A stretch of DNA of 64,000 nt. It comes from an uncultured Saprospiraceae bacterium (GTDB taxonomy: Bacteria > Bacteroidota > Bacteroidia > Chitinophagales > Saprospiraceae). A model generated the notes under the pieces. The model searched no databases, was not told the origin of the DNA, and saw only the letters and a list, made by a program, of their open reading frames with translations. Below, piece by piece: positions 3,370 to 20,685 of this stretch (its first letter is position 1; each line of letters starts with the position of its first letter). The stretch spans positions 62,001-126,000 of the forward strand of contig CALLMH010000050.1 in the NCBI GenBank assembly GCA_938007965.1, given 5' to 3'. Both the position numbers and the translations under genes were made by a program.

Positions 3370-3921
3370 CTACTGGAGTGTATCGAGCTTCAAATTTAAC
3401 TTAATTCCAATAAACCCAGTATCACCAATAACATCAACCTTATAATCCGAATTCTTTGCTCTAGTAAACAGGAGACTACTTAATATACCGACTGCGGCTC
3501 CCGCAAATACATCGGATGGATGATGGACTGGACCATTAATCCCAGCTCGGCTATACCCTACAAAACTTGCCAATAGTGTAGCAGGCACTCCATATTTCCA
3601 TCCATATCGCTTCCATAAAAAAGTAGACCCCATAAATGACAATGATGTATGCCCAGACGGAAAACTATACTTTCCACCATTGGGTCTTCTTCGTTTTACT
3701 GTCCTCTTTAAGAGATGCGTTGACAATGTCTGCACAACAAATGACTTCAATATCTGACTAGTCCCCTCTTTATCTTTTGTCACAAGACTAAAGCCAAGAC
3801 CAGTCAACGGTAAAGCTATCTGGATCACATCGCCGGTCTCTTGCACCAGTTCTTGTGCCTGCCCAATATTGAGACTAAATATCATCAATAAACTTACGAT
3901 ATAGACGCTGGTTATTCTCAA
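3370..3921 (-). CDS. PAP2-family phosphatase, membrane associated
   Basis: The protein has 183 residues. All three parts of the PAP2 phosphatase signature are visible: K72 with R79-P80, PSGH at 88-91, and SR at 124-125 followed by H133 and D137. The SR-to-H spacing is two residues longer than in the usual SR-x5-H pattern. Such enzymes dephosphorylate lipid phosphates such as undecaprenyl pyrophosphate or phosphatidic acid at the membrane; the substrate here is unknown. A signal-like segment at residues 5-22 is followed by fewer membrane spans than in the large PAP2 forms. The start is TTG, overlapping the stop of the RidA gene by four bases, which suggests translational coupling. Confidence 0.85.
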   Translation of the reverse strand: MRITSVYIVSLLMIFSLNIGQAQELVQETGDVIQIALPLTGLGFSLVTKDKEGTSQILKSFVVQTLSTHLLKRTVKRRRPNGGKYSFPSGHTSLSFMGSTFLWKRYGWKYGVPATLLASFVGYSRAGINGPVHHPSDVFAGAAVGILSSLLFTRAKNSDYKVDVIGDTGFIGIKLNLKLDTLQ

Positions 3922-4301
3922 TCTACGGCTATACAGCTGATTTCAACATTTACAAATTTTGGTAGATTTGCTACTTCTACTAACTCCCGAGCTGGAGCGG
4001 TTTCCTCATTAAAGTATTCTGCATATACTGCATTGATACGAGCATACATATTCATATCCGCTACGAAAACAGAGCATTTTACAATGTTTTCGTATGTCAT
4101 CCCCGCTTCTGTTAATACATGACCGATATTCTTCATCACTTGATGTGTTTCGGATTCTATATCTTCCATAATCAACTGACCAGTACTTTGATCAATCGCT
4201 ATTTGTCCAGAAAGATACAGTGTACCACCAGATTTCACAGATTGGTTATAAGGTCCGACTGGCGAAGGAGCGTTTTGTGTATTTATAATTTGTTTGTTCA
4301 T
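3918..4301 (-). CDS. ridA: RidA family reactive enamine/imine deaminase
   Basis: The 127-residue length is typical of the YjgF/YER057c/RidA family. RidA hydrolyses the reactive 2-aminoacrylate and 2-iminobutanoate made by PLP enzymes such as threonine dehydratase, protecting enzymes like IlvE. The N-terminal SPVGPYNQSV, the central LYLSGQIA and the C-terminal PARELVEVANLPKFVNVEI carry the active-site arginine and the conserved glutamate. The product is a cytosolic trimer in the family. Its presence a few kilobases from ilvA fits its role but may be coincidence. It is translationally coupled to the PAP2 gene that follows. Confidence 0.92.
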   Translation of the reverse strand: MNKQIINTQNAPSPVGPYNQSVKSGGTLYLSGQIAIDQSTGQLIMEDIESETHQVMKNIGHVLTEAGMTYENIVKCSVFVADMNMYARINAVYAEYFNEETAPARELVEVANLPKFVNVEISCIAVD

Positions 4302-4579: not shown

Positions 4580-4710
4580 ACCTTGAATATTGAACACTAC
4601 CTACCTTGAAAATTGAACACCAAATACCTTGAAAAATGAACACTATATACCTTGAAAAGTGAACACTATATACCTTGAATATTGAACACTACCTACCTTG
4701 AAAAGTGAAC
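4580..4710 (+). repeat. Direct-repeat array A: six copies in 23-bp register
   Basis: Six copies of ACCTTGAAnAnTGAACAC start at 4580, 4603, 4626, 4649, 4672 and 4695, exactly 23 bp apart. Only positions 9 (A or T) and 11 (A, T or G) of the 18-bp core vary; the 5-bp spacers vary but favour TAnnT. The sixth copy is cut to its first 16 bases and runs into TATTTT. As 23 is not a multiple of three and the core contains TGA, the array is non-coding. The sequence is not palindromic; each core holds two TTGAA/TGAAC-type half-sites 7-8 bp apart, as iterons or multi-site operators do. It ends 33 bp before the ATPase start. Confidence 0.97.
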
Positions 4711-4726
4711 TATTTTAGTATATTTG
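4698..4726 (+). promoter_or_regulatory. Likely promoter of the AAA ATPase, overlapping the last repeat
   Basis: TATATTTG at 4719-4726 fits the TAnnTTTG element. TTG at 4698-4700, inside the sixth repeat, stands 18 bp upstream as the -33 element, one base short of the usual 19-21 spacing. A protein bound to the repeats would therefore cover the promoter. The start codon is 17 bp downstream. Confidence 0.4.
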
Positions 4727-4743
4727 TCATATAAACAGCTCAT

Positions 4744-5916
4744 ATGATGATCACTAGACTTGAAGAAAATAATGTCCATGAAAATCTCTCATTTTTCCCA
4801 GTAGTAGGAATACTCGGTGCACGTCAGGTAGGCAAGACCACTCTCGCAAAATCATTAATCGGTTTCGAGGAAATCTTGTATATTGACCTTGAGTTAAATT
4901 CAGATTTGAGAAAACTTGACGATGCAGAAACATATCTCAGATTACATCAACATAAATGTATCGTAATAGACGAGGTACAGCGAATGCCTTCTTTATTCCC
5001 ACTGATTCGAGCACTAGTTGATCAAGATAGACGACCACGAAGGTTTGTACTATTGGGTTCTTCGTCGCCTGACTTGATGAGGGACAGTTCTGAGTCTCTA
5101 GCAGGTAGGATCGCGTATACTATCCTGTCGCCAATCAATTTATTAGAAATCTCAGATAATGTATCTATGAGAGAACACTGGATGAGCGGCGGCTATCCTA
5201 GTGTAATTACATCAGATAACAAAAAGATGAAGAATAGATGGCTTGCTAATTACATAAAAAATATATCAGATAGAGATCTTACCGATCGAGGAATATCTAT
5301 ATCCACTCCGCGCACAATGGTTCTCTTGCGAATGCTAGCGTATCTTAATGGCAGTCCGATAAACTACAATCGGATTGCAAAAAAAATGGATGTAGCTCAT
5401 ACAACCATTGCTAGATATATAAGTATCCTAGAAGGATCCTACCTAATCAGATTGCTTGAACCATATTTCGTCAACAATGGTAAACGCTTAGTCAAATCAC
5501 CTAAGATATACTTCACCGATTCTGGGCTTCATCATCACCTCGCAGGCATCAGATCGTTGGAAGCTTTATACGGCTCTGAACTCATCGGAAGCTGCTGGGA
5601 AGGTTATATCATAAATCAGGTCATAGCTATACTACCTGAAGATTGGAGTACGTACTACTACAGGACACACGCTGGGTCTGAATGTGATCTCATTCTCGAA
5701 AACGAACGTGGAGAATTATGGTGTATAGAGATCAAGTATAGCAACGCGCCCTCTATATCTAAGGGATTTTATACCAGTATTGAGGACATCAAACCTGTAA
5801 GATCATTTGTCATCACACCAGAATCCGAAACATATCAAAAGAAAAATGGGACAACTATTATGAGCCTTGCTTCATTTCTCAAAGACGAATTACTAAATCT
5901 ATATTTAGCTGAATAA
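4744..5916 (+). CDS. AAA ATPase with winged-helix and DUF4143 (nuclease-like) domain, framed by repeat arrays
   Basis: A 390-residue protein of the AAA_14/DUF4143 class. Walker A is GARQVGKTT at residues 25-33, Walker B is CIVIDEVQ at 72-79, and LAGRI near 119-123 sits where the arginine region is expected. A winged-helix-like segment begins near residue 197 (YNRIAKKMDVAHTTIARYIS). The C-terminal DUF4143 part contains E313-x-D315 and E329-I-K331, the spacing of a PD-(D/E)xK nuclease core. The biological role of the family is poorly understood; many genomes carry several copies and ideas include toxin-antitoxin-like or mobile behaviour. It is alone, with identical-type direct-repeat arrays 33 bp before the start and 4 bp after the stop, which suggests gene and arrays form one unit. 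Confidence 0.85.
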   Translation: MMITRLEENNVHENLSFFPVVGILGARQVGKTTLAKSLIGFEEILYIDLELNSDLRKLDDAETYLRLHQHKCIVIDEVQRMPSLFPLIRALVDQDRRPRRFVLLGSSSPDLMRDSSESLAGRIAYTILSPINLLEISDNVSMREHWMSGGYPSVITSDNKKMKNRWLANYIKNISDRDLTDRGISISTPRTMVLLRMLAYLNGSPINYNRIAKKMDVAHTTIARYISILEGSYLIRLLEPYFVNNGKRLVKSPKIYFTDSGLHHHLAGIRSLEALYGSELIGSCWEGYIINQVIAILPEDWSTYYYRTHAGSECDLILENERGELWCIEIKYSNAPSISKGFYTSIEDIKPVRSFVITPESETYQKKNGTTIMSLASFLKDELLNLYLAE

Positions 5917-5920
5917 CGCT

Positions 5921-6051
5921 ACCTTGAAAAATGAACACTACATACCTTGAAAAATGAACACTATACACCTTGAATATTGAACACTACCTACCTTGAATAT
6001 TGAACACAAAACACCTTGAAAAATGAACACTATCTACCTTGAAAAATGAAC
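5921..6051 (+). repeat. Direct-repeat array B: six copies in 23-bp register
   Basis: Six copies of the same 18-bp core as array A begin at 5921, 5944, 5967, 5990, 6013 and 6036, again exactly 23 bp apart and in the same orientation. Core variants are AAA (four copies) or TAT (two copies) at positions 9-11. The last copy is cut after TGAAC and continues TATTT, just as in array A, so both arrays have six units and the same terminal form. Array B starts 4 bp after the ATPase stop codon and ends 45 bp before the stop of the convergent minus-strand gene. No target-site duplication outside the two arrays is evident. Confidence 0.97.
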
Positions 6052-6096
6052 TATTTATACCTCAACTACCTGTATATTAAATAATTATAACTTCGA

Positions 6097-6813
6097 TCAA
6101 AACTTCAACGAATCTAATATATCCGTACCCAATATTTTGTCTTCAGCGTGGGTATACCAGGTTCGCTTCTTTGGTAATCTTACATTTTTATATATCGCTT
6201 CATCTTCTAAAATGATGTACTCGCCATCATTCTTTGATTCATCGTGATAGAATCGATATCCCAGCATTGCATAAGAACTAGGACTAAAATAAAAATACCA
6301 AGTATCTTTCCCTACTTCTTCACTGTATGTAACTTTTATGGCAAGTGATTCCTTACCGAAGAAGTTTTCCAATTTCACTTCTGGGTCTATTATCGTCCCT
6401 GGATCATTTAACTTCATAGGCATGAGCCAGAGGTATTGATAATAATTCTTCATCATTGTTACTCTATCGACGGAGAGTCTATACTTACCTGCCTCCTCCT
6501 TAGAGTAATCAGAAGTCCCATCTAAGAGTATCGTTGTGACGTCTCTCTTTACGTCGCTTACAATAGACTTACCGTCTATTTGATTTGACATTTGAAACTC
6601 TTCCTTCTCAATATTAAACGAAATGTTGGTTATACGATCCTCTCTATCGGGAGTAGATCCAATGAGAACCATATTGACATCATTTGTAAATAACTCAGAA
6701 TCAGGATCGTGATAGTTAATACTTTTCTCGATCAAATCTGAAGCTATTATGCTTTGCCCTATGCCCACATAACAGCTGAAAAGCAAGGCAATAAAATTTA
6801 TATATCTTGTCAT
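6097..6813 (-). CDS. Secreted DUF6503-like protein (LolA-type fold suspected)
   Basis: About 238 residues from the ATG at 6813, which directly precedes a signal peptide (MTRYINFIALLFSCYVGIGQ); the reading frame is open 42 codons further upstream but that extension is not signal-like. The mature part begins IIASDLIEKSINYHDPDSE and continues with an antiparallel beta pattern of the kind seen in Bacteroidota DUF6503 proteins, whose fold is thought to resemble the lipoprotein carriers LolA/LolB. The assignment is by pattern memory and moderate. Its stop lies 45 bp from array B, convergent with the ATPase gene. Confidence 0.6.
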   Translation of the reverse strand: MTRYINFIALLFSCYVGIGQSIIASDLIEKSINYHDPDSELFTNDVNMVLIGSTPDREDRITNISFNIEKEEFQMSNQIDGKSIVSDVKRDVTTILLDGTSDYSKEEAGKYRLSVDRVTMMKNYYQYLWLMPMKLNDPGTIIDPEVKLENFFGKESLAIKVTYSEEVGKDTWYFYFSPSSYAMLGYRFYHDESKNDGEYIILEDEAIYKNVRLPKKRTWYTHAEDKILGTDILDSLKF

Positions 6814-6994
6814 AGTGTAAGTATTTGACAGCAAAATAGAGATAAATATAGATCTGTGAAGAATCGAATAATCTATATCATTAATATTAACAAAAGCTTG
6901 TATACAAATATGAAGTCTTTGCATTATAGAAAAATGCATTTCGTCATACGTATTGGCAGAGAAAACTTAGTGTTTCACCCCTGAAAAACGGCTT

Positions 6995-20540: not shown

Positions 20541-20685
20541 TGCTGTTGAATTTGACTGATTTGTTGAAATTGATTGATTTATTTTAAGGCGTATATTCTT
20601 TCGGATGGAAGTGCTTGATTTGGTTGATTATTTATAAGAATCAACCCAAATATTCTCATCTAACAAATCCGCAGATCAAAAAGCG

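Follow-up and report, generated by a model that had tools for sequence, protein, structure and literature searches.

The locus lies in a 64,000-nucleotide stretch of DNA from an uncultured Saprospiraceae bacterium (the window, by which we mean the whole stretch analysed) and comprises a single ATPase gene set between two repeat arrays, with arrays and gene in one common orientation. Its features and immediate neighbours, in window coordinates, are the following.

3918..4301, minus strand: RidA-like neighbour (Ribonuc_L-PSP), a flank common to the congener G199.
4580..4710, plus strand: 5' array of six direct units with a 23-bp period and the core ACCTTGAAnAnTGAACAC; the sixth unit has 16 bp only.
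4698..4726, plus strand: promoter candidate of the Bacteroidota type, with TTG at 4698, 18 bp, and TATATTTG at 4719-4726.
4711..4715, plus strand: TATTT, directly 3' of the shortened sixth unit and repeated behind the 3' array.
4744..5916, plus strand: gene for an AAA_14 ATPase with winged helix and DUF4143 (nuclease-like) domain, 390 aa; PADLOC candidate PDC-S01.
5921..6051, plus strand: 3' array of six direct units, with period, core and orientation as in the 5' array.
6052..6056, plus strand: TATTT, directly 3' of the shortened sixth unit of the 3' array.
6097..6939, minus strand: DUF6503 neighbour, convergent with the ATPase gene; it adjoins a DinB-like gene in three congeners.

The two six-unit arrays that a preliminary description had placed around one AAA_14/DUF4143 gene were recovered at 4580-4710 and 5921-6051, and the period is 23 bp in all ten intervals, as had been stated. 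The core has 18 positions, 16 of which are invariant among the ten complete units; the only two variable positions, a number also given before, are 9 and 11, and the core columns are conserved while the 5-bp spacers are freer. In both arrays the sixth unit is indeed cut short, to a 16-bp core, and followed by TATTT. The 3' array begins 5 bp past the stop codon of the ATPase gene, and no same-strand gene was found immediately behind it. The last 5' unit supplies the TTG (4698) that stands 18 bp ahead of TATATTTG (4719-4726). The Bacteroidota promoter consensus is TAnnTTTG, and judged by this consensus the array overlaps the candidate promoter of the ATPase gene itself. A CRISPR array, which the preliminary description had already dismissed, was rejected for the window repeats (spacers of 5 bp and a 23-bp period, as against the expected diverse spacers of about 25-40 bp); chance or microsatellite drift was likewise rejected on the shuffle counts, the genome-wide privacy of the core and the conserved core columns. 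Elsewhere in the window, a short 18-bp tandem repeat of two copies occurs at 20544-20580.

Both domains of the encoded protein were found in Pfam searches above their curated cut-offs (DUF4143, E 4.7e-40, and AAA_14, E 4.9e-27; 137.4 and 94.9 bits versus 28.1 and 27). An HTH_11 match at residues 196-231 falls below the Pfam cut-off; a winged helix is seen in the predicted model (helices at 188-231; mean pLDDT 92.5). The protein matches PADLOC PDC-S01 with a best E of 3.2e-88, and the window gene belongs to PDC-S01. The residues G30, K31, T32, D76, E77, R122, D315, E329 and K331, which we take to be those of Walker A and B, an arginine and PD-(D/E)XK, are invariant in 23 aligned proteins, and D315, E329 and K331 also in 29 aligned proteins. 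A separate C-terminal alignment used the 15 of 29 rows that had sufficient length. Structural comparison of the full model mainly covers residues 1-280; the closest matches, over residues 1-268, are the archaeal AAA+ ATPases PABY2304 (2qen) and Sso1545 (2fna), with Z of 16.9 and 15.8 (Foldseek E 3.5e-6 for Sso1545), followed in the ranking over the same residues by STAND NTPases (for example CED-4 and plant NLRs). The likeness to the two archaeal ATPases consists in the AAA+ core and the winged helix; sequence identity to the two archaeal proteins is only 16-20%, and the DUF4143 part lies outside these matches. When the C-terminal domain was modelled alone (pLDDT 93.9), its best structural matches were PD-(D/E)XK nucleases (VRR_NUC, NucS/EndoMS, McrC and Card1; 6ut7 with E 1.8e-3, 4qbn with TM 0.50/0.65, 2vld and Card1), none of them at E <= 0.001 and in a list that includes unrelated weak entries. 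The domain retains the E-D-E-K residues of these nucleases and is predicted to be nuclease-like. Searched by sequence, PDB chains gave nothing beyond two weak matches.

In the part of PMC12988326 that we draw on, PDC-S01 ranks fourth in frequency among the defence candidates of prokaryotes and is unvalidated; it is presented there as a fusion of an ATPase with a PD-(D/E)-X-K domain, and one survey detected it 9,986 times in archaea and 29,494 times in bacteria (about 39,500). Within that part, PDC-S01 is described without mention of a cis-site or repeat array, and the word 'promoter' is absent from the whole paper (PMC12988326).

The sites are private to the gene. With up to two mismatches the core matches 12 times in the window, versus a mean of 0.66 in 100 shuffles, and in the whole genome (4.19 Mb, 113 contigs) the core with at most one mismatch gave 12 forward and 0 reverse matches, all inside the two arrays (reversed-pattern control: 1 and 2 matches). 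The ATPase gene is the sole DUF4143 gene found in this genome. A regulon with distant sites was accordingly discarded, the 12 matches lying only in the arrays and the same being true of the sites in two further genomes described below (G052, G120). The iteron-like or operator-like geometry and the self-contained unit that the preliminary description had proposed are supported. That description had named repeats widespread without the gene as a point against it; the two-unit pattern occurs in only 4 of 398 genomes of the family Saprospiraceae, namely the window genome, one congener and two others with single 3-mismatch matches within TTGAAC-rich runs. A loose 15-base pattern (2 mismatches) in the three congeners G199, G064 and G157 was set aside as noise (forward and reverse counts in G199 of 71 and 71, versus 83 and 68 for the reversed-pattern control; counts in G064 and G157 only moderately above that control). 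The 15-mer CCTTGAAGAATGAAT is present as single copies on at least nine contigs of G157, where it may be a dispersed element.

Homologues were identified by protein search in 100 of the 199 sampled genomes of the family Saprospiraceae. We gathered 94 homologue genes with their flanks, 83 of which had enough clean upstream sequence for the upstream tests (L061, which has no match to the query P0001, was examined by eye; both members of the near-identical pairs L097/L098 and L109/L110 entered the motif and repeat tests). The loci compared are often related, so that the counts below are not independent. Within 160-bp regions, strong repeats that beat all of 200 shuffles were found upstream of 58 of the 83 ATPase genes, versus 3 of 105 neighbouring genes at the same loci; the remaining 25 upstream regions showed no repeat by this test. 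In 220-bp flanks, direct or inverted repeats with z > 4 occur upstream in 57 of 83 cases and downstream in 17 of 92. The upstream repeats are of two forms, direct-repeat arrays and palindromes of about 40 bp located at the promoter or start codon, and the inverted repeats are centred 19-128 bp from the start, most of them within 66 bp. A half-site motif, roughly T-T-A/C-T-G-C-A-A-A-T-T, was derived by expectation maximisation from half of the loci and applied to the remaining half; the control 95th percentile was exceeded by 31 of 42 loci in one split and by 25 of 41 in the other, and a similar half-site lies within the window units. The consensus TAnnTTTG is found no more than 60 bp from the start in 45 of the 83 relatives, versus 7 of 105 control genes. 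Site similarity tracks protein identity (rho 0.28, 0 of 500 permutations), and a segment 45 bp further out hardly does so (rho 0.06, 31 of 500). The preliminary description had named homologues without such arrays as a point against it, and this holds in part: direct arrays are mostly absent in relatives, but most relatives carry a similar half-site as a palindrome.

The spacing of the units is more constant than their sequence. We scanned 124 upstream regions (83 genome, 29 viral-contig and 12 plasmid loci) for repeats in three copies, allowing every period between 15 and 60 bp, and 21 were significant, versus 1 of 105 controls. The periods were 22 bp (14 cases), 23 bp (3), 46 bp (1, the window), 33 bp (2) and 52 bp (1), i.e., 22 or 23 bp or twice 23 bp in 18 of the 21; unit sequences differ and the step stays the same. 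Where a site is present, it is in most loci a palindrome of two half-sites and in a minority a direct array. A tree of 91 proteins scatters the direct arrays over at least three positions, all of them close to rows with palindromes, and puts the window protein in a clade of palindromic relatives (L015, L016, L017, L020). With a matrix built from 37 palindrome loci, 11 of 14 direct-array loci exceeded the control 95th percentile, and the forward orientation gave the stronger score at 11 of the 14; the window units themselves score 10.6, just below the threshold of 10.97.

Homologues are also found in 387 of 72,556 plasmid records and in 8 of 50,697 phage records. The palindrome of plasmid relatives starts with CCTTGCAA or nearly so and, as judged by eye, ends at or beside the start codon; it was seen in Rhizobium, Aminobacter, Agrobacterium, Paracoccus, Sphingobium, Thiothrix, Granulicella, Runella and Spirosoma. 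Like start sites on plasmids extend, again by eye, over Alphaproteobacteria, Gammaproteobacteria, an Acidobacterium and Bacteroidota. The Thermus and Moraxella plasmid relatives have other inverted repeats (by eye). The query P0001 alone detected two loci in genome contigs and none in viral contigs; with the alignment A1, 37 viral-contig loci were obtained, 35 of which had a start and enough upstream sequence, and 29 remained after removal of near copies. Only 6 of these 29 attain the control 95th percentile with the motif matrices, and the sequence motif is therefore not universal; several viral-contig relatives (such as L180, L193 and L188) have arrays or palindromes of other sequence.

A second site behind the gene is much rarer than a site in front of it. 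A downstream copy of upstream sequence that beat 100 shuffles was detected in the same orientation at 11 of 126 loci and inverted at 6 of 126, and several of these copies are other duplications (L020, L079, L120, L175). Clear framing, with sites only beside the ATPase gene, is found in the window and at two other loci. In G052 (L113), seven 22-bp units precede the gene and five follow it, and all 11 two-unit matches of that genome lie on these flanks (reversed-pattern control: 0 and 2). In G120 (L122), a palindrome of at least 35 bp stands before and after the gene and occurs at exactly these two places in the genome. Framing is weaker at L097/L098 and L102. In the window and at L122 the next gene is convergent, and the 3' site therefore serves no obvious promoter; it lies off the promoter of the ATPase gene, and simple autoregulation leaves such a site unexplained.

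Two repeat pairs of a different kind were seen around relatives. On the viral contig of L175, 67-bp direct repeats occur before the ATPase gene and about 180 bp past its stop codon; by eye they resemble what we take to be integron attC sites, and this relative may be a gene cassette. At L120, 61-bp direct repeats flank the ATPase gene and share a long near-identical stretch, which could have arisen by duplication or belong to a dispersed intergenic repeat.

The congener G199 has the locus in common with the window (RidA is 95% identical). Between RidA and a DinB-like gene it carries four clear units and a degenerate fifth but no ATPase gene, and the single DUF4143 gene of G199 is distantly related and lies at another place in the genome; as far as the sequence can tell, this array would either have outlived an ATPase gene or have preceded the arrival of one. 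The DinB-like gene also adjoins DUF6503 in G157 and G064 and is missing from the window genome. The 3.5-kb DinB-like/DUF6503 loci of G157 and G064 contain no core match and no ATPase gene, and the position beside RidA in G064 is a run of N. RidA does not adjoin this pair in the stretches from G157 and G064, so that the adjacency of DinB and DUF6503 is the only one to be regarded as ancestral; because the two-unit pattern is otherwise absent in the 398 genomes, apart from the two single matches in TTGAAC-rich runs, the array is taken to have arrived in the G000/G199 line.

Comparisons among other relatives bear on whether the gene moves and where the moving piece ends. Two genomes of one genus (L109/L110) have 1,442 bp in common (98.3% identity), the only stretch that they share on that strand; it reaches from 154 bp ahead of the ATG to 136 bp past the stop codon and shows a recent transfer with ends outside the site. 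On Agrobacterium plasmids the ATPase unit L153:1439-2830 recurs in L166 in another context, and an adjoining integrase gene blurs both ends (in L153, 1-2830, the ATPase gene stands behind this site-specific integrase gene, and several comparisons break at 2830). The Thermus plasmid comparison is confounded by insertion sequences and an inverted copy. No clean empty site was found in the comparisons of Agrobacterium plasmids, Thermus plasmids and G064. In many Thermus plasmids similarity ends near 3206-3210 of L158, 42-46 bp past the ATPase stop codon, and this breakpoint holds also for truncated C-terminal copies of the Thermus ATPase.

The reading we prefer, with a probability of roughly two in three, is that the arrays are binding sites of the ATPase they frame and that this protein would control its own transcription, the 3' array being a second copy of the site. 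Behind it stand the anatomy of the locus, the privacy of its sites, the family-wide association, the conserved period and the intact catalytic residues, all of which were observed; that the product of the framed gene binds the sites, forms oligomers, acts as a repressor and cleaves DNA is what we infer. Weighing against this reading are the 25 upstream regions without a repeat, the few viral-contig relatives that attain the motif threshold, the score of the window units just below it, the sites behind the gene and the G199 array that has no ATPase gene close by. The winged helix of the ATPase would probably contact each half-site of about 16 bp, and protomers may align as an oligomer, spaced at one per two turns of the helix, and the constant step of 22-23 bp would follow from this. 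As the last 5' unit overlaps the promoter, self-control of transcription would be the simplest outcome. In most relatives the same control would be exerted through two half-sites forming a palindrome over the promoter or start codon, and the direct array would have arisen repeatedly as a variant. The 3' array may let the protein bridge both ends of the gene in a closed loop, or it may be a by-product of recombination.

It is possible, if somewhat doubtful, that the 3' array is a bystander, i.e., that the 5' site suffices and the copy behind the gene stems from unequal recombination or from the promoter site of a second gene, now lost. The small minority of relatives with a 3' copy would fit this, as would the G199 array, which directly precedes the DinB-like gene missing from the window genome; however, framing is found independently in G052 and G120, near the stop codon and with no like-strand gene found directly behind, and the perfect 35-bp palindrome kept in G120 is unexpected for a bystander. 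It is, in our view, unlikely that gene and arrays together form a mobile or excisable cassette, with the arrays as its recombination or target sites, the excision of which would leave a solo array like the solo LTR of a retroelement. The array without an ATPase gene at the same place beside RidA in G199 is what such an excision would leave, although ordinary deletion of the gene in G199 is equally possible, and the DinB-like/DUF6503 pairs of G157 and G064, the identical TATTT ending both window arrays, the recurrence of private-site framing in G052 (22-bp arrays) and G120 (palindromes) and the changing contexts of relatives, including their plasmid copies, point the same way. Against it, the unit contains one gene only between its arrays and no transposase or recombinase, most homologues lack a 3' copy (several of the 11 same-orientation matches among 126 loci being unrelated duplications), the piece transferred in L109/L110 ends beyond the site, and the Agrobacterium and Thermus comparisons are confounded by the integrase gene and by insertion sequences, respectively. 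Movement through the arrays may occur. We regard it as quite unlikely that PDC-S01 genes in general are selfish cassettes, each reading its own private site, with bracketed copies excised or installed via the sites and leaving a solo array; if this were true, one of the commonest defence candidates would partly consist of minimal mobile cassettes.

That the palindromes act as transcript hairpins in an RNA leader is very improbable: in many relatives they do stop at the start codon or close to it, their centres lying 19-128 bp away from the ATG, but direct arrays form no such hairpin and lie mostly upstream of TAnnTTTG, and no Rfam family was found at the cut-off (a single sub-threshold microRNA match was disregarded). 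We give hardly any credence to the arrays being iterons or a replicon remnant, with initiator binding and copy-number control. Plasmid iterons have a unit length and period similar to those of the window arrays, and the AAA+ and winged-helix fold is common to origin-binding ATPases among the weaker structural matches; the locus lies, however, inside a 129-kb contig between genes common to the congener, the framed gene is not of a Rep family but AAA_14/DUF4143, with Ribonuc_L-PSP and DUF6503 as neighbours, and the plasmid relatives adjoin separate rep genes.

Like-oriented sites at a constant two-turn step beside the gene of the presumed binder are found in autoregulators with operator arrays and in phased initiator arrays (iterons), and the window has the same arrangement of several such sites. 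What sets the window apart from those systems is its presumed binder, an AAA+ ATPase carrying a nuclease-like domain, together with the privacy of the sites to one gene and the second array behind that gene. PDC-S01 is a known gene family; in the open-access literature searched, we found no description of the site, of its phase or of any repeats at PDC-S01/DUF4143 genes. Because many relatives have an equivalent private start site, self-recognition is suggested for the family as a whole, i.e., a common, unexplained gene family that may recognise and control its own gene. A private start site whose 22-23-bp step persists despite changes of its letters is a first concrete candidate ligand for PDC-S01, suggests a reporter design and offers a way of sorting the family by recognition specificity. 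It also counsels caution, as what preserves a solitary gene with a control site of its own may be something other than defence.

Two further upstream regions deserve mention. Several imperfect inverted repeats of the TTGTATAGTATAGTATACA type stand before the start of the distant DUF4143 gene of G199 (L061, at about 680-800). A relative from Methanosarcinales (L045) has two TTGTTCTGCATGCAGAACAA-like palindromes directly before its ATPase gene, which hints that the trait reaches archaea.
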